Origin: Acidobacteriota bacterium
GTDB lineage: Bacteria > Acidobacteriota > Vicinamibacteria > Vicinamibacterales > UBA2999
NCBI GenBank assembly: GCA_030650395.1
Contig: JAUSDY010000065.1
Span: 1 to 64,000 of the forward strand
Length of the DNA stretch: 64,000 nt
Reading direction: 5' to 3'
Every line of letters starts with the position of its first letter. Position 1 is the first letter of the stretch. The notes beneath the pieces were generated by a model. The model had not been told where the DNA came from. It worked only from the letters and a program-made list of their open reading frames with translations, and ran no database searches. Positions 4,519 to 21,729 of the stretch are shown here, one piece after another. The translations under genes were made by a program, and so were the position numbers.

Positions 4519-5795
4519 TCGACATTCCGCCGGTTCTGCTGTTCGTCCTCGCATTCGGTGTCGGCGCGGTCGCCGCGCTGGGCGTGCAGGCGCTATGGCA
4601 ATCGTCCGCCGCCGGGCAGCAGCGCGAGCGCGTGCTGGCGATCCTGTCGGTGGCGCGTCGCTACGCGCTCGGCGATCTCAGCCGGCCCGCCCCCGACTAT
4701 GGCGATGACGACGTCGGGAGCGTGGCGCGCGGGATGGATCACGCCGTGCAGGAGCTGGGGCGGCGCATCGACAGCCTGTCGCGCGATCGCGCGCGCATGG
4801 AGGCGATTCTCGCGAGCATGAGCGAGGGCGTGCTGGTCGTGAACGAGCAGGGCCTCCTGCAGCTGGTGAACGACGCCGCGCGCCGCATCCTCAAGCTCGA
4901 GAAGGGCTCGATCGATCGCTCCTACGTCGAGGCGATCCGTCATCCCGGCATCGTCGAACACATCGCTCGAGCACTCGCCGGACACGAGACCGGGCCGCTG
5001 GAGCTATCGGTCACGAGAGACACGACGTTGACGCTCGTGGCCCAGGTCGCGCCGGTCGTCGCCGCCGGCCGCGGCGCGGTGCTGGTCATGCATGACATTA
5101 CCGACTTGAGAAAGGCGGATCTGATTCGCCGCGACTTCGTGGCAAATGTCTCGCACGAGCTGCGCACGCCGCTCACCGCGATCAAAGGCTACGCGGAAGC
5201 GTTGCTCGACGATCCCGAAGACGACGAGGCGCGACGACGGTTCCTCGAGATCATCCACCGGCATGCGACGCGCATGGAGCGGCTGGTGAAGGATCTGCTC
5301 AGGCTGGCGCGGCTCGATGCGGGACAAGAAACCGTGGAGCTGGCGCCGTGCGATATCGACGGCCTGGTGGAGGGCATCGTGTCGGACTTCGAGCCGATCG
5401 CACAAGAGAAGCACCAGACCCTCGACGCGCAGGTCGCGCCCGAAGCGGCGCTACTCGTGACCGACGCGGCGAAGCTGCATGACGTGCTGCGCAACCTCGT
5501 CGAAAACGCCGTCAACTACACGCCTGACGGCGGTGCCGTCGAGGTGCGCGCCCGCATCGCCGGCGGCCGCTTTCAAATCAGTGTGGCCGACACCGGCCAC
5601 GGCATTGCACCTGACGATTTGGCGCGCGTGTTCGAGCGCTTCTATCGGGTCGACAAATCGCGGGCCCGTCCCGGCGGCACCGGCCTGGGTTTGTCGATCG
5701 TCAAACATCTGGTCCAGGTGCTCGACGGCGAAGTGATCGTGGAGAACGAGCCTGGCGGCGGCGCGCTGTTCACGGTAACGTTGCCGTTGCGATGA
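4515..5795 (+). CDS. PhoR-like sensor histidine kinase
   Basis: A 426-residue kinase with a GTG start overlapping the regulator stop (GTGA). There is one N-terminal transmembrane segment (about residues 5-28), a HAMP-like linker, then a PAS-like domain (about 95-190). The HisKA box is NVSHELRTPLTAIKGYAEAL with phospho-His at 214. The ATPase domain has N, G1 and G2 boxes (LRNLVENAVNY, DTGHGIAP, GGTGLGLSIVK). The single membrane pass without a large periplasmic loop resembles PhoR, which senses phosphate through a Pst complex. No Pst or PhoU gene is adjacent here. The next gene starts inside its stop codon, so at least three genes are coupled. Confidence 0.85.
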   Translation: MIDIPPVLLFVLAFGVGAVAALGVQALWQSSAAGQQRERVLAILSVARRYALGDLSRPAPDYGDDDVGSVARGMDHAVQELGRRIDSLSRDRARMEAILASMSEGVLVVNEQGLLQLVNDAARRILKLEKGSIDRSYVEAIRHPGIVEHIARALAGHETGPLELSVTRDTTLTLVAQVAPVVAAGRGAVLVMHDITDLRKADLIRRDFVANVSHELRTPLTAIKGYAEALLDDPEDDEARRRFLEIIHRHATRMERLVKDLLRLARLDAGQETVELAPCDIDGLVEGIVSDFEPIAQEKHQTLDAQVAPEAALLVTDAAKLHDVLRNLVENAVNYTPDGGAVEVRARIAGGRFQISVADTGHGIAPDDLARVFERFYRVDKSRARPGGTGLGLSIVKHLVQVLDGEVIVENEPGGGALFTVTLPLR

Positions 5796-6631
5796 AGATC
5801 CGGCCGCTGTGCCTGACAGCCATCGCTGCGCTCCTGGCATTGGTGAGCGGATGCGAAGCATCCTCGACTCCGGTGCTAGAGATCGCGACGACGACCAGCG
5901 TTCAGAACTCCGGCCTGCTCGCGGTGTTGCTGCCGGCGTTCGAACAGGCCGCGGGCATCGCGGTCCGGGCCCACGCCACCGGCAGCGGCCGAGCGTTGCA
6001 GATGTTGTCAAACGGCACCGTCGACGCCGTGATCAGCCACTCGCCGATCGCGGAACAGCGGTTGACGGCCGATCATCCCGACTGGTCCTATCGCAAGCTC
6101 GCCTACAACTGGTTCGTGGTCGTCGGGCCTCCATCAGACCCCGCTCGCGTACGCGGTGCCACCGACATCGCCGACGCGTTTCGCCGCATTGCCGAATCAG
6201 ATGCGATGTTTGTTTCTCGTGGCGACGAATCGGGAACCCATGAACGCGAAAACGCGTTCTGGGAGGCGGCCGGCCGTCGGCCGATCACGGGGAGGCTGCT
6301 GGTCAGCGGCCGCGGCATGGCCCAGGCACTTCGTCATGCCGATGAGGCCCGTGCATATACCCTCAGCGATGCGCCGACGTTCCGGCAGCTGGCCGATGAT
6401 CTCGACCTTGCAGTGGTGTTCGAGGACGATCCGCGTTTGCTCAACACCTACGCGTTCATCCACCGCACCGGACATCCGGAGGCTGATGCACTGGCGGCCT
6501 GGTTGTTCTCGGACACCGGCCGGACGTCGTTGGGCGGGTTCATGGTCGAAGGCCGGCGCGGTTTCGAACCGTGGCCGCCAGGCTGTGCGGCGGGCGCCCC
6601 GTCGGACGTGCCGTGCCGGCCAGACAAATGA
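5792..6631 (+). CDS. tupA: Tungstate/molybdate-type ABC binding lipoprotein (TupA-like), orphan
   Basis: 279 residues with a lipobox (LALVSGC, Cys at about 21), so a membrane-anchored periplasmic lipoprotein. The mature N-terminus ATTTSVQNSGLL matches the TupA oxyanion-binding loop. ATGSGRALQMLSNGTVDAVISH and SRGDESGTHERE are the other anion-contact segments of this type II binding-protein family. No TupB permease or TupC ATPase gene is nearby. Its ATG overlaps the stop of the PhoR-like kinase (5792-5795), so it may act as an anion sensor for the kinase rather than as a transporter part. That is inference from gene order. Confidence 0.7.
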   Translation: MKIRPLCLTAIAALLALVSGCEASSTPVLEIATTTSVQNSGLLAVLLPAFEQAAGIAVRAHATGSGRALQMLSNGTVDAVISHSPIAEQRLTADHPDWSYRKLAYNWFVVVGPPSDPARVRGATDIADAFRRIAESDAMFVSRGDESGTHERENAFWEAAGRRPITGRLLVSGRGMAQALRHADEARAYTLSDAPTFRQLADDLDLAVVFEDDPRLLNTYAFIHRTGHPEADALAAWLFSDTGRTSLGGFMVEGRRGFEPWPPGCAAGAPSDVPCRPDK

Positions 6632-6694
6632 GTCCGCAGAGCCGGTACACGGCTTCCCGATGATCGTTGAATAGAAGCTGAGGAGGCGGTCCGG

Positions 6695-12359: not shown

Positions 12360-15300
12360 CTACAACGCCCGCTCGCGTGCCACCAGCCGGTACAGCACCG
12401 GCAGCACCAGCAGCGTCAACGCCGTGGACGATAGAATGCCGCCCACCACGACGGTGGCAAGCGGCCGCTGCACCTCGGCGCCCGTGCCGGTGGCGAGCGC
12501 CATGGGCAGAAACCCCAGCGCCGCGACCAGCGCCGTCATCAGCACCGGCCGCAACCGCGCCACCGCGCCGTTGAAGACCGCATCGTCGACCGACGCGCCG
12601 TCGGCGCGCAGGCGGTTGATGAACGTCAACATCACCAGCCCGTTCAACACCGCAACGCCCGACAGCGCGATGAAGCCGACCGCCGCGGAGATCGAAAACG
12701 GAATGTCACGCAGCCAGAGAGCCAGGATGCCGCCGGTGAGCGACAGCGGCACGCCGGTGAAGACCAGCAGCGCGTCCCGCATGTTGCCAAACGTCGCGAA
12801 CAACAGCGCGACAATCAGCAGCAGCGCCATCGGGACGACGACCTGCAATCGTTGCCGCGCCGAGATCAATTGTTCGAACTGACCTCCCCACGCCGTCCAA
12901 TAGCCGGGGGGAATCGTGACGCCGCCCTGGATTCTGCGCTCGGCATCCTCGACAAACGACCCGATGTCACGCCCGCGAACGTTCGCGGTCACTACCACGC
13001 GGCGCTTGCCGTTCTCGCGGCTCACTTGATTTGGACCAGTGGCAATGTCGAATCTCGCCACTGACTCCAGCGGCACGTACGCCTCCGCCCGCCCGCCCGT
13101 CGGCGGCAAGTCCGCACCCCGGCGCGTCGAGACCAGCGGAATCGGCAGCCGCTTCAACCCCTCGATGTCGGTGCGCATGTTTTCGGGCAGGCGTACGACG
13201 ATGTCGAAACGGCGGTCGCCGTCGTAGACCTGGCCCGCCGCCTTGCCGCCGATGGCGACCTCGACGACATCCTGCACGTCGACGACGTTGAGCCCCAGCC
13301 TGGCCATCGCAGGGCGATCGAGCTCGATGGTCAGTACCGGCAATCCTGTCGTCTGTTCGATCTTCACATCGGAGGCGCCCGGGACGCCGGCCAGCACTCG
13401 TTCCACGGCCGCGCCCACGTCAGCCAGCGTGTTCATGTCGTCGCCGAACACCTTCACGGCCACATCGCTGCGCACCCCCGCGATCAGCTCGTTGAAGCGC
13501 ATCTGGATCGGCTGCGTGAACTCGTAGTTGTTGCCCGGCAGGTGGAACAGGTCGTCTTCGAGCTGCGTCACCAGCGACGCCTTGGTCCGGCGCGGGTCGG
13601 GCCACTGCGACGGCGGTTTGAGCATCACGTAGGTGTCGGCCACGCTGGGCGGCATCGGATCGTTGGCGATCTCGGCCGTACCGATCTTCGAGAACACATA
13701 GTCCACTTCCGGATAGGTCTTCAGTTGTCGCTCGACCGCGTGTTGCATCTCGACCGCCGTCGTCAGGCTCGTGCCGGGGATCCGCAGCGCGTGCACGAGC
13801 AGGTCGCCTTCATCGAGACTCGGCAGAAACTCGGTTCCCAGGCGGGCGCCAATCACCCCCGTCACGGCCATCAGTACGACTGCGGCCACAGCCGTCGCCG
13901 GCCCATTGTTGAGGGCCACGCGCAGCGCCGGGGCGTACGCGCGCTGCGCCAGGCAGACCAGCAGGTTTTCCTTCTCCGACATCCGTCCGGTCAGGAAAAC
14001 CGCGAGCGCCGCGGGCACGAAGGTCATCGTCAGAATCATTGCGCCGAGAAGCGCGGCGAGCACCGTGAACGCCATCGGGTAGAACATCTTGCCCTCGATG
14101 CCGGTGAGCGTCAGGATCGGCAGGTACACGATCATGATGATCAGCTCGCCGAAGATCGTGGCTTTCCGGACCTGGCTCGAGGCATCGAACACCACGGCGT
14201 AGCGCTCCTCGGGTGTGAGCGGGCGCCCGAGCTCGTGCTGGCGTTCGGTCAGGCGCCGCACACAGTTCTCGACGATGATCGCGGCGCCGTCGACGATGAT
14301 GCCGAAGTCGAGGGCGCCCAGGCTTAAGAGGCTGCCGCTGACACCGCGTTCCACCATGCCGGTGATGGCAAACAACATCGACAGCGGAATGACACAGGCG
14401 GTGATGAGCGCCGCCCGCATATTTCCCAGGAAGACGAACAGCACCAGGATGACGAGCAGGGCGCCGACCATCAGGTTGTCGCGCACGGTCTTGATGGTCG
14501 CATCCACCAGCTTCGACCGGTCGTAGACGGTCTTCGCCACGACGCCCGCCGGCAGCGTGCGGTTGACCTCGGCCATCCGATCGGCGACCCGCCGCGACAC
14601 GATGCGGCTGTTCTCGCCCATCAGCATGAGGGCGGTGCCGACCACCACCTCGCGGCCGTTTTCGGTCGCCGCGCCGTTGCGGAGCTCCTGGCCGAGAATG
14701 ACCGCGGCGACCGTCCGCAAATAGATCGGCGTGCCGTTGGCGTTGGCGATGACGATGCTTTCGATGTCGGCGAGCGACGACACCTGGCCTGGGGCACGAA
14801 TCAGGTACTGTTCGCCGCGCCGCTCGATGTACCCGGCGCCGGCGTTCGCGTTGTTCGCCGCCAGGGCGGACAGCACGTCGCGGAACGTGAGCCCGTGCGC
14901 CATCAGCTTCGCGGGATCGGGCGTGACGTGAAACTCCTTGGTGTAGCCGCCAATACTGTTGACGTCGGCCACGCCGGGCACGGTGCGCAACTGCGGACGC
15001 ACGATCCAATCTTGAACCGTTCGCAGATCCATACCCGAATACGGTTGTCCCTCGGGTGTCCGTGCGCCGTCCTCCGCCGCCACGGACCACAGAAAGATCT
15101 CGCCAAGCCCGGTCGCGATCGGCCCCATGGAGGGCGCAATGCCAGGCGGCAGGTGGCTGCGCGCCTCGAGGATCCGCTCGTTCACCAGCTGACGGGCGAA
15201 GTAGATGTCGGTGCCGTCATCGAAAATGACCGTGACCTGCGACAGCCCGTACCTGGAAATCGAGCGGGTCTCCAGCAAACGCGGCAACCCGGCCATCGCC

Positions 15301-15512
15301 GTTTCGACGAGAAACGTGATGCGCTGCTCGGCCTCCAGCGGCGAATACCCCGGCGCCTCGGTGTTGATCTGCACCTGGACGTTCGTGATGTCGGGCACGG
15401 CGTCGATCGGCAACCGCTGGTAGTTGTAGGCGCCAAAGACCGCGAACCCAAGCGTCGCGATGATGACGACCCAGCGTTGCGCGATGGAAAACCGGATGAT
15501 GCGTTCAATCAT
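12360..15512 (-). CDS. czcA: Heavy-metal RND efflux pump, CzcA/CnrA type
   Basis: 1050 residues, the usual length of heavy-metal-efflux RND proteins. The inner-membrane trimer exports metal ions by proton antiport. The fourth transmembrane segment carries LDFGIIVDGAAIIVEN, the DFGxxVDGAxxxVEN signature of the divalent-cation (Zn/Co/Cd/Ni) subgroup rather than the Cu/Ag one. Large periplasmic loops and 12 transmembrane segments are evident. It follows the fusion-protein gene by 2 bp and that follows the outer-membrane gene by 14 bp, giving a czcCBA-ordered operon read leftwards. Exact metal specificity is inferred from the motif. Confidence 0.9.
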   Translation of the reverse strand: MIERIIRFSIAQRWVVIIATLGFAVFGAYNYQRLPIDAVPDITNVQVQINTEAPGYSPLEAEQRITFLVETAMAGLPRLLETRSISRYGLSQVTVIFDDGTDIYFARQLVNERILEARSHLPPGIAPSMGPIATGLGEIFLWSVAAEDGARTPEGQPYSGMDLRTVQDWIVRPQLRTVPGVADVNSIGGYTKEFHVTPDPAKLMAHGLTFRDVLSALAANNANAGAGYIERRGEQYLIRAPGQVSSLADIESIVIANANGTPIYLRTVAAVILGQELRNGAATENGREVVVGTALMLMGENSRIVSRRVADRMAEVNRTLPAGVVAKTVYDRSKLVDATIKTVRDNLMVGALLVILVLFVFLGNMRAALITACVIPLSMLFAITGMVERGVSGSLLSLGALDFGIIVDGAAIIVENCVRRLTERQHELGRPLTPEERYAVVFDASSQVRKATIFGELIIMIVYLPILTLTGIEGKMFYPMAFTVLAALLGAMILTMTFVPAALAVFLTGRMSEKENLLVCLAQRAYAPALRVALNNGPATAVAAVVLMAVTGVIGARLGTEFLPSLDEGDLLVHALRIPGTSLTTAVEMQHAVERQLKTYPEVDYVFSKIGTAEIANDPMPPSVADTYVMLKPPSQWPDPRRTKASLVTQLEDDLFHLPGNNYEFTQPIQMRFNELIAGVRSDVAVKVFGDDMNTLADVGAAVERVLAGVPGASDVKIEQTTGLPVLTIELDRPAMARLGLNVVDVQDVVEVAIGGKAAGQVYDGDRRFDIVVRLPENMRTDIEGLKRLPIPLVSTRRGADLPPTGGRAEAYVPLESVARFDIATGPNQVSRENGKRRVVVTANVRGRDIGSFVEDAERRIQGGVTIPPGYWTAWGGQFEQLISARQRLQVVVPMALLLIVALLFATFGNMRDALLVFTGVPLSLTGGILALWLRDIPFSISAAVGFIALSGVAVLNGLVMLTFINRLRADGASVDDAVFNGAVARLRPVLMTALVAALGFLPMALATGTGAEVQRPLATVVVGGILSSTALTLLVLPVLYRLVARERAL

Positions 15513-15514
15513 GA

Positions 15515-17017
15515 TTAATGGTCGTGGGTCGCGCCGAGCTTGCCGATTTCGGCCTTGATGGCAAAACTATTGGTGGCCGCGTAGCGTTCGCCCGGCTTCA
15601 GGCCGTTCAGCACTTCGACCCACCCGCCGTCCGACCGGCCCAATTCGAGAGGACGCGCCTCGAACCAGTCGCCATAGCGGACGAACACCACTTGCCAGTC
15701 GCGAAATGTCTGAATGGCGTCGGCGGGCACGGCCAGCGGCACCGTGGTTGACGATTGGACCAGCCGGACCGACACGAAGAGCCCCGGCCGCCATCGTCCA
15801 TCAGGATTGGGAATGACAATGCGTGCCGTGGCGCTGCGGTTCTCCTCACCCACAAGTGAGCCGATGAACGTCACGCGCCCGCTCACTTCGCGATCGAGAT
15901 CCTGCGATCGCACCGTTGCGGCCTGGCCCTGGTGCACGTGGTTGAGATCCCTGGCGGTCACGCTGATGTCCACCCACACCGAGGACAAATCGGCGATGAC
16001 GAAAATGGCACGATCGGGAGGGACCGACTCGCCGACAGTCACATCACGATCGATCACGGTGCCGCCGAGCGGCGCGCGGATTTCATAGCGCGGCAAGCTC
16101 TCGGCCGGCGCCGTCGCGAGGCCCGCCAGTGAGCCGGGCGCCATGCCAAGCGCGACGAGCTTCTGGGCCGCCACCTCCGCCGTCAATTGCGCCTGCTCCA
16201 CTGCTCGGCGCGCTTCCAGGTATTCCTGCTCGGCTGAAATTTTCTTCTTCCAGAGGTTCTCTTCGCGCTCGAGCGCGACCCGCGCGAACTGGACGTGCTG
16301 CAGGGCGGCCAGGTACGCACTCTTCGCGTCCGCCAGCTCCCGGCTGTTGATGACGGCGACGAGATCGCCACGCCGCACGGCATCGCCCTCTTTCTTCAGG
16401 ACTTCGATCACCACGCCCTGCAGTCGTGTGACGACGTGCGCCAGCCGAGTTTCGTCAGCCTTGATCTCGCCCGGCACCTCCAACAGCGTCGTCATCGCCC
16501 TCGGCCCGACCTCCCGGATCTCGATACCGGCGCTGGCAATGGTGGCGTCGCTCAGCTGCACCTTGCCTTCGAACTGCGAGTACGACCAGTCGTGCGTGCG
16601 GCCATTGCGGGTCGCGGTGACTTTGACATCGAATGAATGCGGTTCTTCGACGACCCCCGCACCACGAAGGTAGTCGGCCTCGGGGACGAACGCGATTCGA
16701 TCGACACGCCCGCCGAGCCGGTGCAATTCAACCGCAAGCTGGACTTCGCCCGGCGGAATCGGCCGGCCCTGGCGATCGAGCGGGTAGACGCGGAACTGCG
16801 GAGGCACGCCGGTCTCGTAGATGGTCATTTCCAGTTGCAGGTCGTCACCGGCGAGCAGGCGCGCTCCGTGCGGACCTCTTGGATAATCCAGCGGTCCGTC
16901 CGCCTCGTGGGTTTCGGCGGAGGACGGCGCCTCGGACCCGCGTCGCACCAGCAACGTGACGACAACGAGGCCGGCGATGGCGATCGCGACGGCACTCAAG
17001 ACAGATTTGGTTCGCAT
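15515..17017 (-). CDS. czcB: RND periplasmic adaptor (membrane fusion protein), CzcB type
   Basis: 500 residues from ATG 17017; the longer frame to 17068 has no support and runs into a dispersed repeat. There is an N-terminal membrane anchor (about residues 8-26), then an extra N-terminal domain (about 35-170) seen in CzcB-like proteins. The lipoyl/hairpin/beta-barrel core follows (VVTRLQGVVIEVLKKEGDAVRRGDLVAVI; long coiled coil about 225-300; EIRAPLGGTVIDRDVTVGES). It links the RND pump to the outer-membrane channel. The tail ends in GATHDH, a small His cluster. Confidence 0.88.
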   Translation of the reverse strand: MRTKSVLSAVAIAIAGLVVVTLLVRRGSEAPSSAETHEADGPLDYPRGPHGARLLAGDDLQLEMTIYETGVPPQFRVYPLDRQGRPIPPGEVQLAVELHRLGGRVDRIAFVPEADYLRGAGVVEEPHSFDVKVTATRNGRTHDWSYSQFEGKVQLSDATIASAGIEIREVGPRAMTTLLEVPGEIKADETRLAHVVTRLQGVVIEVLKKEGDAVRRGDLVAVINSRELADAKSAYLAALQHVQFARVALEREENLWKKKISAEQEYLEARRAVEQAQLTAEVAAQKLVALGMAPGSLAGLATAPAESLPRYEIRAPLGGTVIDRDVTVGESVPPDRAIFVIADLSSVWVDISVTARDLNHVHQGQAATVRSQDLDREVSGRVTFIGSLVGEENRSATARIVIPNPDGRWRPGLFVSVRLVQSSTTVPLAVPADAIQTFRDWQVVFVRYGDWFEARPLELGRSDGGWVEVLNGLKPGERYAATNSFAIKAEIGKLGATHDH

Positions 17018-17031
17018 GGGTATGACTCTCG

Positions 17032-18456
17032 CTATTGGCAGGACAAACCTGAAGGTTTGTCCCCACATGTGGCCGGCGGCGGTGACGCGGCATCGGCCAG
17101 CGGCATCCCGATGAGCCGCTCGACCTGCGCGGCCGCCTTGTGCCAGCCGGTCAGCGCCCGCAGATACTGCCCTTCCGCCGCGACGAGCGTGCGTTGCGCG
17201 TCGAGCACATCGAGGAACCCGAAGCGGCCGAGCCGATAGCCTTCTTCGATCGACTCGAATGCAGACCGAGCCCCCGGCAGTACGTTCGACGCCAGCCCGG
17301 CGGCTTCATCGTGCGCGCCGGCCAGCCTGCCGTAGGCCTCGGCAAGCATCGCCGTGACGCGGCTCTGCGCGGCGCGCTGCTCTTCGCGCGCCTTGGCGAT
17401 TCGGTCGCTCGCTTCCTGGACGCCCGCACGATTACGGTCGAACACCGGGAGCGGAATAGACGCGCCGATCACGAACGCATTGCGGTCGACCTCGGTGAAG
17501 CGGCGATAGCCGGCGGTCACGGTCACATCGGGCACGCGCGCCGCGGCCTCGACGGCACGCGCGGCGTCGCGTTGGGCGATCTCCGTCGTCCAGCGGGCGA
17601 CCTCGGGGTTCTGCGCGACGCGCTGCTGCAGAACCGCGAACGGCGGAAGCGAGGGCGGGATCGAAAGGTCGCCGTCAGCACCGTCGAACATCGCGGCATC
17701 ACTTCCCCACAAGGTCGCCAGCCGCGTGCGGCCGGCGTCGAGCGTTCGCCGGGCCCGTTGTTCGTCGATGCGCGCGCCCGCCAGCGCGACTTCTGCCTTC
17801 GTCCGCTCGATCGGCGATACCACGCCCGCCTCAACCCGCGTGCTGGCGATTTGGTGCACCTGCTCGGCCAGCGCCCGTGTCCGCCCGGCGAGGGCGGCCA
17901 GCTCTTGACCGGCCAACACGTCGAGGTAGGCCGCGCTGACGCGGGTCAACACGTCAATGCGGGCGGCTTCGAAATCCCACGCCGCGAGGTCCCGTGCGAG
18001 GTCCGCGAGTGTCTGCCGGGCTGCGCGCTTGCCGCCAAGCTCGATCAGTTGACTGAGCTCGATGGTGGTCTGGGGTTGGACGGCGGCCTCCGCGCCGGCC
18101 ACGTGCGTGGCGCCGCCAAGATCCTCCACCAGCGTGCCGAGCACGGGGTTCGGCGGCCGCCCCGCCTGGAGCGCGCGCGCTTCCCTTGCGCGCGTCTCCC
18201 ACGCGAAACTGGCAAGCTCAGGATTCTGCAACAACGCGAGCGACAACGCATCGCGAAGGGTGATGCGACCTTCGGGGTTGTCGACGCGTCGCACGTCGCC
18301 AGCCGGTTGCGCCTGGTAGACGGGCAGATCGATTCCGAGCGGGCGTGGAGGAACCTGCTGGGCCCAAACACCGTGGCCCACGCTGAGCGCCAGCACTGGA
18401 GCACCAAGCCAACACACGACGCGACGAGCGAGGGAAACACAAGCAGCCAATGACAT
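17032..18456 (-). CDS. czcC: TolC-family outer-membrane channel of the CzcCBA-type pump
   Basis: 474 residues with a signal peptide (ending near VWAQQ) and two OEP repeats of long amphipathic helices (about 65-250 and 270-460) as in CusC/CzcC/TolC. The last 11 residues (CGDKPSGLSCQ) are encoded by a dispersed palindromic repeat at 17041-17062, so the natural C-terminus has probably been replaced or extended by repeat insertion. It is the first gene of the czcCBA operon, 69 bp after a His-rich small protein gene on the same strand. Confidence 0.88.
   Translation of the reverse strand: MSLAACVSLARRVVCWLGAPVLALSVGHGVWAQQVPPRPLGIDLPVYQAQPAGDVRRVDNPEGRITLRDALSLALLQNPELASFAWETRAREARALQAGRPPNPVLGTLVEDLGGATHVAGAEAAVQPQTTIELSQLIELGGKRAARQTLADLARDLAAWDFEAARIDVLTRVSAAYLDVLAGQELAALAGRTRALAEQVHQIASTRVEAGVVSPIERTKAEVALAGARIDEQRARRTLDAGRTRLATLWGSDAAMFDGADGDLSIPPSLPPFAVLQQRVAQNPEVARWTTEIAQRDAARAVEAAARVPDVTVTAGYRRFTEVDRNAFVIGASIPLPVFDRNRAGVQEASDRIAKAREEQRAAQSRVTAMLAEAYGRLAGAHDEAAGLASNVLPGARSAFESIEEGYRLGRFGFLDVLDAQRTLVAAEGQYLRALTGWHKAAAQVERLIGMPLADAASPPPATCGDKPSGLSCQ
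17041..17062. repeat. Dispersed palindrome, copy 1
   Basis: A perfect inverted repeat with 10-bp arms (GGACAAACCT and AGGTTTGTCC) around GA, followed by CCCACA on the right. It supplies the last codons of the outer-membrane channel gene. An almost identical copy (spacer AA) lies at 53929-53950, also at the 3' end of a gene. Confidence 0.75.
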
Positions 18457-18525: not shown

Positions 18526-18921
18526 TCAGGCGGAGGCGGGCGGAGCGGGCGAGCAGATAAATCTGAAAGGCGGATCGTGCGTCGGCAGGATCGTGGCGCG
18601 ATTGGCCGGGCGGACAATGGCGGAAGCCGTTTCGTCGGCGACGAGAATCGTGACCGCCGGCGAACAGCGTAATGAGAACGGCGCGCCGGCGTCGTAAGTG
18701 AGCGGCAGGATCCGCGCGGTCAGATGACCGTCGTGATCCAGGTTGGTCTCGTCGTGCGCGGCATCTTCGTCGTGATGCGAAGACTCATCGTCGATCAGGT
18801 GACGATGGATGATGGTGTCGTTCTCTTGCTGATGCACATGCACGGATGGCAACACGCCCACCATCAGCATGGCGAGCGCGGCCATTGAAGCGACGACGCG
18901 AGGTGCGACGAGTCGGAGCAC
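18526..18921 (-). CDS. Small exported His/Asp-rich protein, probable metal binder
   Basis: 131 residues from a GTG at 18921. A signal peptide (about residues 1-27) is followed by a metal-ligand-rich stretch: HVHQQEND, HRHLIDDESSHHDEDAAHDE, then LDHDGH. The second half is a compact domain with one Cys near the C-terminus (FICSPAPPASA). His-rich periplasmic proteins often buffer metal for RND pumps. It lies just upstream of the czcCBA-type operon on the same strand. No named family is recognised, and it lacks the C-terminal LRI of the Cys-rich family seen elsewhere in the window. Confidence 0.6.
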   Translation of the reverse strand: MLRLVAPRVVASMAALAMLMVGVLPSVHVHQQENDTIIHRHLIDDESSHHDEDAAHDETNLDHDGHLTARILPLTYDAGAPFSLRCSPAVTILVADETASAIVRPANRATILPTHDPPFRFICSPAPPASA

Positions 18922-18994: not shown

Positions 18995-19381
18995 TCAACC
19001 TGAACCGGTGAGGCGCTTCAACCGATCCTGAATCGCCGCGGGGGACGGAACTCCGTCCGGGTAGATCCGTCACGTCGGGGTGGCGAAAGGCGGCGTCGGT
19101 TCCGCCATGCCGAACAGATCGCGACTCGAAACGAGCACGGTCGGCGTCGGATAGCCACGGCGAACGTCGCCATCCGGCAAGGTTTCCAAGTCGACGACTT
19201 GATACGCGAACGGCTGACCCAGCACTCGCAGGGCGTCATCGAGATTCGCTTTCATCGTCGTGGTGTTGACGCAGCCGTCGCGTGTGAGGAATACCAGATC
19301 TCTCATCGGTGCTATCGATGCCGGTTGCGCCGCGCAGCCTGCGGCGATTACTCCTACGAGAACGATGACGGCGATCCGCAT
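18995..19381 (-). CDS. Thioredoxin-like lipoprotein with in-frame UGA: candidate selenoprotein
   Basis: Read normally, the ORF from ATG 19381 stops at a UGA at 19072-19070 after 103 codons. If that UGA is read through as selenocysteine, the frame continues with RIYPDGVPSPAAIQDRLKR and ends at a TGA at 18995-18997 (128 residues, Sec at 104). The continuation uses GC-ending codons like the rest of the gene. The protein has a lipobox (VIAAGC), a thioredoxin-like beta strand and cysteine (LVFLTRDGCVNTTTM, C about 37) and a cis-proline-like loop (GYPTPTVLV). So a Cys and a Sec could form a redox or metal-binding pair. A SECIS-like hairpin starts 11 nt after the UGA. It lies 35 bp after the DUF1624 gene, which itself follows merR. 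Sec insertion is inferred. Confidence 0.65.
19043..19072 (-). promoter_or_regulatory. Putative bacterial SECIS element (with its UGA)
   Basis: On the minus strand: UGA (19072-19070), 11-nt spacer, then a perfect 6-bp hairpin (GGACGG / CCGUCC, 19058-19043) with a 4-nt loop AGUU. The loop starts 17 nt after the UGA and its second base is G. From memory, the SelB-binding upper hairpin of E. coli fdhF has the same 11-nt offset, a 6-nt 5' arm and a loop starting AG. Confidence 0.65.
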
Positions 19382-19416: not shown

Positions 19417-20658
19417 TCAGAACAGCCTCCAGTACGAATCGATTGGTTTGGATTGCTTGAAATCCCGATAGCGCCGCGTCACGAGGTACAACGGGCACAA
19501 GCCCACCAGCCAGACGATGTAAACCGCCAGGTAGCCCGCGCCATCGCGGAAGCCCGCGGCGCCGACCAGGGCGAAGAGCCAGAGATGGGCGAGGTAGAAC
19601 GCCAGCGGCGCCTGCCCGAACACCCGGAGCACGCGGCCGAACGGCGCGAGCCAGGCGGGCATCCGCTCCAGGCCGGCCAGCAACAGCAGGTTGGTGCCGA
19701 GCATGAACAGCGTAAAGACCAGCGCGGGCGGGTACTTGATGAAGTTCAGAAACTCGATCCATGAACCGTCGCGCGGCAGCCTGATGTTGCCGAAGCCGCC
19801 GTAGACGCGCAGGGCGATCGCCGCCGCCAGCCCGGCCAGGCCGAGCCACGGCGCGCTGCCAAGTGCCGCGCGCCGGTCGTGGACGATCCAGCGGCCGAAC
19901 AACACGCCAAGCGCGGCGATCCCGAACCACGGGATCACCGGATACTGCACCCAGATGTGATGGTTGATTCCGGGAATCAGCAAGAGACCCGTGAAGAAGC
20001 TGTAAGCCGTCGAGATGTTTTCGGGACCCGGCGTGAGCAATGCGGTTGCCAGCAACGCCGCCACGGCAAGCGCCGCCCAAACTGCCGCACGGAATCGAAT
20101 GAACGCCGCGCTGAGTACCATCGACAGGCCCAACCCGACAAGCACCGTGAACACCATCATCGGCGGACCCTCGCCCGGAATGATCGAGTCAGGTCCCGTG
20201 AGCGGCTCGACGCGTGACGACAGCAGGCCGATCAGCCACGCCGGGAGTTCTAGGAAGAAACTGACCAGCACGAGCAGCAGGCCGCGCGCGAGCAGAAAGC
20301 CGGAGACGCGTCCGTTGCTCCAGCCCTGTTGGCGCCGACTCTCGGCCATCAGGCTGATGCCCACGCCCATCAGGAAAAAGAAGCCGGGCGCGCACAGGTG
20401 GGTCACAAGGCGCGTGAGAAACGCGATCGGGCTCGAATAGCGGGTCCACAGCCCGGCCCACATTTCCCCCGAATGGAACCGGCCGACCATGAAGCTGACA
20501 TGGTCGAGCGCCATGACGATCATGATGAAGCCGCGCAGCGCGTCGAGCGATCCGAGGCGCCCGCCTTCTCTAACAGGTTGCGGGCGCCCAATCAGCACGG
20601 CATGCTGCTCGACTCCACCGTTATCCGTCACAACGACCACGCCTTGCAGCATGTTCAT
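19417..20658 (-). CDS. Multi-pass membrane protein, DUF1624/HGSNAT-like acyltransferase family
   Basis: 413 residues, about 10-11 transmembrane segments. RLGSLDALRGFIMIVMALDHVSFMV is split by the usual first transmembrane helix and is the signature start of DUF1624/heparan-alpha-glucosaminide N-acetyltransferase-like proteins; H in LDH is the likely catalytic residue. It would transfer acyl groups across the inner membrane; substrate unknown. The first 12 residues (MNMLQGVVVV) do not look like this family. They resemble the C-terminus of the cupredoxin domain of the neighbouring fusion protein (CGMNMLRGSVVVQ), so the 5' end may be a recombination scar. It lies between merR and the candidate selenoprotein, same strand. 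Confidence 0.75.
   Translation of the reverse strand: MNMLQGVVVVTDNGGVEQHAVLIGRPQPVREGGRLGSLDALRGFIMIVMALDHVSFMVGRFHSGEMWAGLWTRYSSPIAFLTRLVTHLCAPGFFFLMGVGISLMAESRRQQGWSNGRVSGFLLARGLLLVLVSFFLELPAWLIGLLSSRVEPLTGPDSIIPGEGPPMMVFTVLVGLGLSMVLSAAFIRFRAAVWAALAVAALLATALLTPGPENISTAYSFFTGLLLIPGINHHIWVQYPVIPWFGIAALGVLFGRWIVHDRRAALGSAPWLGLAGLAAAIALRVYGGFGNIRLPRDGSWIEFLNFIKYPPALVFTLFMLGTNLLLLAGLERMPAWLAPFGRVLRVFGQAPLAFYLAHLWLFALVGAAGFRDGAGYLAVYIVWLVGLCPLYLVTRRYRDFKQSKPIDSYWRLF

Positions 20659-20738: not shown

Positions 20739-21729
<991 letters not shown>

Follow-up and report, generated by a model that had tools for sequence, protein, structure and literature searches.

SecX, a probable exported thioredoxin-fold selenoprotein of Acidobacteriota with a proposed role in mercury resistance

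Does a UGA codon inside a small thioredoxin-like gene of an Acidobacteriota bacterium encode selenocysteine (Sec), and is the product of this gene concerned with mercury? The gene lies in the window, by which we mean the whole stretch of 64,000 nucleotides that was analysed. The original prediction described a reverse-strand frame that meets an in-frame UGA and continues for 24 more codons, with a hairpin behind the UGA and merR next to the gene. We found the frame as described, up to a second UGA, and refer to its product as SecX (Table 1).

Table 1 Features at and around the SecX locus, in window coordinates
Feature	Position	Strand	Detail	Basis
SecX coding frame	18998..19381	-	ATG at 19381; 128 residues, Sec at 104; stop UGA 18995-18997	UGA-as-Sec translation; the UGA recurs in 21 more loci
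In-frame UGA (Sec104)	19070..19072	-		UGA in 22/22 loci; aligned to Cys of the DF family
SECIS-like hairpin, six pairs	19043..19058	-	loop AGUU 19049-19052	frozen silent codons, pairing kept
Cys37 codon (GCVNT)	19271..19273	-	first helix region begins here	invariant in 21/21 aligned members; model helix 40-53
HGSNAT-like membrane protein gene	19417..20658	-	directly upstream, 35 nt from its stop to the SecX start	PF07786, 51.9 bits
Hg-type merR	20739..21161	-	approximate start at about 21161, the frame running on into merA antisense sequence	TIGR02051, 156.2 bits (cut-off 150.85)
merA fragment	21174..21503	+		NF010311, 168.9 bits over residues 199-307 of 560; tblastn
Truncated MerP-like HMA frame	21484..21729	+	UGA 21535-21537 at the first Cys of GMTCxxC	PF00403, 64.8 bits; translation; relatives with UGA there
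Heavy-metal RND efflux genes	12360..18456	-		TIGR00914, 1581.8 bits, and others
CusA/CzcA-type pump	12360-15512	-	RND efflux set	
Adaptor	15515-17068	-	RND efflux set	
TolC-type	17032-18456	-	RND efflux set	

When 396 genomes of the phylum were searched at the protein level, 14 SecX loci came up in 11 genomes, and every locus had a single in-frame TGA. A profile run against 162 genomes of the order, a set that overlaps the 396, matched 21 genomes; the TGA form was present in 16, of which eight were new and contributed one new locus each. The five other matched genomes were excluded as they held decayed copies (L100, L103), DF-like Cys proteins (L101, L102) or another thioredoxin-like frame (L104); L106, a second but weak match in G407, was likewise not counted. 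The resulting set consists of 22 loci in 19 Acidobacteriota genomes, and the TGA occupies the same position in every one of them. Homologs that end at the UGA had been named as the outcome that would speak against Sec; all 22 loci instead continue with conserved sequence, including an R-x-Y-x-x-G-V-P motif. SecX is present in decayed form in G421 and G479. A scan of genome contigs returned a single relative, the locus of G391, a genome from the same order as the window, and no relative was detected in plasmid records or, with a single-sequence query, in viral contigs. Over the SecX stretch there was no Pfam match and nothing notable in Rfam (one match, E 8), while the PDB sequence search gave weak matches only. 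We recognised no publication describing the protein in a literature search that reached few subscription papers.

Bacterial SECIS elements follow a rule of a set distance between UGA and loop, with a G within the first two loop bases. The predicted hairpin, GGACGG-AGTT-CCGTCC, indeed starts 11 nt past the UGA and leaves 17 nt between UGA and loop, and the required G is the second loop base. When the window peptide was recoded synonymously, all six pairs appeared in 22% of trials, a figure that is if anything raised by the codon table, which was pooled over the family with the hairpin codons included. The hairpin of the window is therefore weak evidence when taken alone, and it becomes strong across the 22 loci. 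Six pairs are kept in 20 loci and five in the other two. The codons behind the UGA are frozen (GGC 19/19, GGA 21/21, GTT 20/21 and CCG 21/21, counted on 21 sequences with L028 omitted as nearly identical to L027), in contrast to a number of further SecX positions with invariant Gly, Pro or Thr, where all four codons are in use. In the aligned stem 98.4% of cells pair, compared with 50.8 to 62.7% in slid versions. The pairing score and the covariation score were each matched or exceeded in 6 of 500 shuffles. Covariation within the stem is slight, with both sides changed at one pair in two sequences, a result matched or exceeded in 149 of 500 shuffles, so the case for the hairpin rests mainly on the frozen silent sites. 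Frozen codons together with kept pairing point to a constraint on the RNA besides that on the protein. Comparison among the loci thus shows readthrough of the UGA into a conserved tail and a hairpin under constraint of its own, as would be expected if SelB decodes the UGA as Sec.

An inspection of NCBIfam indicated a sister family. A single model matched the window SecX, namely NF049942 ("DF family (seleno)protein"), and the 23 bits obtained fall short of its cut-off of 70; among 21 SecX members, 20 match this model at E up to 0.1, and otherwise one stray model was hit. The model matches in 37 cases among the 396 genomes, with 16 genomes over the cut-off. A profile comparison with hhalign gave a probability of 99.2, the homology covers almost the whole domain, and Cys37 and Sec104 fall on the two conserved Cys of the DF family. 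It had been expected that homologs carry Cys at the UGA site; this is true of the sister family alone, where 26 loci read of 30 fetched have Cys in 21, TGA in four and Asn in one, whereas inside the SecX subfamily Cys occurs in none of the 22 loci. Some DF members therefore share the UGA at the SecX Sec site, but SecX differs in having UGA throughout, in its own long loop before the Sec and in often bearing an export signal. Three DF relatives that we checked are fused to MerT (L050), MerC (L074) and an LMWPc domain (L063), the MerT and MerC fusions being Cys proteins. DF domains in L050, L061, L063, L074, L075 and others are joined to MerT, MerC or low-molecular-weight phosphatase/arsenate-reductase-type domains. 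Selenocysteine-assisted organometal systems embody the idea of selenoproteins acting on organometals, an idea that SecX may share; in NCBIfam the 21 members match just the DF model and the stray one.

The UGA, the conserved tail and the frozen codons in 22 loci support the reading of SecX as a selenoprotein, which on these alignments we hold to be close to certain. A Sec apparatus in the source genome had been proposed as a check, and it was recovered in part: selA, selB and a tRNA-Sec (65.9 bits) are present, and selD was not found in the assembly. The congener G107 supplied a 12-kb query that contains selD at 4884-5810. The source contig C85 starts at query position 6643, about 0.8 kb beyond the expected place of selD, and tracks the query at 82-86% identity. 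Because C85 follows the synteny of G107 from 6643 on, selD is expected off the contig start, and the source copy probably falls in an assembly gap just there. Among the 11 SecX genomes of the phylum search, to which the counts apply and from which the eight genomes added by the order-level search are kept apart, selA and selD each exceed their cut-offs in nine and selB is found in ten. As selB is common in the phylum (253 of 396 genomes overall), its association with SecX is not significant by hand calculation. In G391 neither selA nor, at E 1e-70, selB was found, and nothing passed the cut-off for selD, despite the TGA form of SecX; this genome also carries the TGA form of a MerP-like gene on another contig. 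Either both genes were recently acquired and are cut short there, or the assembly is one without Sec machinery. SelD itself is a known selenoprotein, and one in-frame TGA is present in selD of seven of the nine genomes over the cut-off (G116, G149, G173, G167, G325, G107 and G317).

The structure model of SecX (pLDDT 88) has the order strand-helix-strand-helix-strand-strand-helix, which fits a thioredoxin fold. Its matches are modest, with thioredoxins, glutaredoxins, SelW-like proteins and KaiB among the best; the top ones reach E 5.2e-3 and Z 7.6, so that no Foldseek match has E up to 0.001 and Z stays below 8. No mercury protein appeared near the top of these structure searches, which proves nothing either way. 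The best reading of the model is a thioredoxin-fold protein in which Cys37 would open the first helix and Sec104 would follow the last strand. A lipobox-like pattern stands near the start of 12 of the 22 members, some others have an N-terminus that looks hydrophobic on inspection, and in four the sequence starts immediately ahead of the domain. Export thus appears to be common in the family and not universal, and the window SecX is probably exported and lipid-anchored.

To examine the link with mercury, mer queries were run against the 22 SecX regions, of 3.2 to 21 kb each. mer genes are found near ten loci (the window, L018, L036, L037, L038, L039, L040, L108, L109 and L110) and near none of five control regions from three of the mer-positive genomes; a MerR-like gene at L111 (33% identity, below the MerR cut-off) was not counted. 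SecX has a complete set of merR, merT, merP and merA beside it in L018 of G391 and in L109 of G465, the latter with a gene for a MerP-like UxxC protein in addition. A MerR-type GTAC-n-GTAC operator in the context TTGA(C/G)TCCGTAC-n-GTACGG lies within 800 nt of the TGA in eight loci (L018, L036, L037, L038, L039, L108, L109 and L110). In seven of them the operator begins 30 to 85 nt upstream of the SecX start that was chosen; at L038 it precedes a MerP-like gene that is itself ahead of SecX. Across 370 kb of surrounding sequence the pattern was counted 12 times, and it is absent from the window. No such operator is present in the stretch examined for 14 of the 22 loci, the window SecX among them. 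Where they are found, the operators and mer genes lend support to a role of SecX in mercury handling.

We therefore favor the reading, with a probability of roughly two in three, that SecX is a genuine exported thioredoxin-fold selenoprotein that uses Cys37 and Sec104 in mercury resistance, the mercury role being the inferred part. SelB would decode the UGA as Sec. At loci with a mer operator, induction of SecX by Hg(II) would run through MerR. The Cys37/Sec104 pair might capture Hg(II) outside the cytoplasm and deliver the metal either to a pump or into the MerP/MerT/MerA route. The same pair may alternatively keep mercury carriers reduced. Against this reading count the 12 loci with no mer gene and the 14 with no mer operator in the stretch examined, the broken merA and MerP-like neighbors in the window, the Sec genes not detected in G391, the selD not found in the source assembly, the slight covariation and the weak fold matches.

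SecX could also be a true selenoprotein that joined the mer regulon in some lineages only, its task being either that of a general thiol/selenol oxidoreductase of the periplasm or one concerned with a metal other than mercury. This would agree with the 12 of 22 loci at which no mer genes were found in the stretch examined, with the arsenate-reductase-type LMWPc domain fused to the DF relative L063 and with the RND heavy-metal pumps at several SecX loci. Against it speak the mer operators directly before SecX in seven loci and the MerT and MerC fusions in the sister family, and we regard this explanation as unlikely.

A further question is whether the window locus itself is still in working order. 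The prediction that SecX lies next to merR is roughly right, as an Hg-type merR is on the same strand, but it is about 1.4 kb upstream with the HGSNAT-like gene in between. Judging from the spacing, the HGSNAT-like gene is probably co-transcribed with SecX. RND-type metal efflux genes stand on both sides. Between SecX and the efflux genes we also noted a His/Asp-rich frame of 131 residues with a hydrophobic start (18526-18921, reverse strand) and no Pfam or NCBIfam match. The merA fragment, at about 21160-21510, is hemmed in directly between merR and the MerP-like frame. The first codons of this MerP-like frame come from across the break. The mer cluster of the window is broken, either via rearrangement or via misassembly. 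One may thus see the locus as a decaying mercury island whose intact SecX is outside MerR control or of little use: the adjoining merA and MerP-like genes are fragments, the window SecX has no mer operator, and G421 and G479 hold decayed copies. Set against this are the frame, hairpin, Cys37 and Sec104, all intact in the window copy, and the fact that misassembly could equally yield broken neighbors, so that decay seems to us rather improbable. That the SecX UGA is an ordinary stop with a coincidental tail and hairpin is hardly credible, because the recoding result for the single hairpin and the presence of SecX in G391 without detected Sec genes are outweighed by the UGA, tail and frozen codons common to 22 of 22 loci and by the Cys at the UGA site of the sister family, and the 22-locus alignment rules out chance read-through.

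If SecX is a selenoprotein of mercury resistance, it may not act alone. MerP-like proteins with the motif GMT-U-(A/T)GC, in which TGA replaces the first metal-binding Cys, are encoded in the window, G167 (two copies), G465, G479 and G391; a more distant TGA form is found in G500 and G309, and other genomes have Cys. Intact UGA relatives adjoin SecX in G167 and G465. The MerP-like UxxC protein is likely a second selenoprotein that accompanies some SecX loci. One common stem folds at positions 15-33 behind the UGA in five of eight TGA copies, which is weak evidence because one Cys copy folds alike. Some MerP-like matches contained reported TAG codons, and four such copies (L145, L146, L148 and L149) were inspected; they read TGC or TGT at the motif, and UAG-coded Sec was rejected for them. 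Over its HMA domain the companion scores 66.6 bits against NF041115 (UxxU metal-binding (seleno)protein; cut-off 95) and 44.9 bits against MerP (cut-off 92.55), thus reaching neither. Its motif is UxxC, unlike the UxxU of NF041115, and the window copy is truncated.

Selenoproteins linked to mercury that have been published comprise MerP, MerT-like and MerB-like proteins and a mercuric reductase with UxxU (PMC2398784, PMC9312934), the MerP forms having been listed earlier from ocean samples (PMC2398784). They resemble SecX, as we propose it, in placing Sec in mercury-handling proteins. By name, none of these proteins is an exported thioredoxin-like protein of the SecX type; the lists also contain entries labelled "hypothetical" (PMC2398784, PMC9312934).

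We tentatively suggest that some Acidobacteriota possess a two-selenoprotein mercury relay, a scheme to which we give somewhat less than even odds. MerR-induced SecX and the secreted MerP-like UxxC protein would both use selenolates, by general chemistry tighter ligands of Hg than thiols, to catch extracytoplasmic Hg(II) before handing it on to a pump or to MerT/MerA, and SecX would represent a Sec-only branch of its family. For SecX itself, the Cys37/Sec104 pair is proposed to bind Hg(II) or to reduce mercury carriers. Sec104 is the likely active residue, and standard gene calling would stop at the UGA and miss it; the SecX family has probably been missed or misannotated in this manner. With the mercury role inferred, the finding would join selenocysteine to MerR-controlled mercury handling. 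It also offers the testable idea that bacteria pick a selenol since mercury binds better to it than to a thiol, despite the hard release of the metal.
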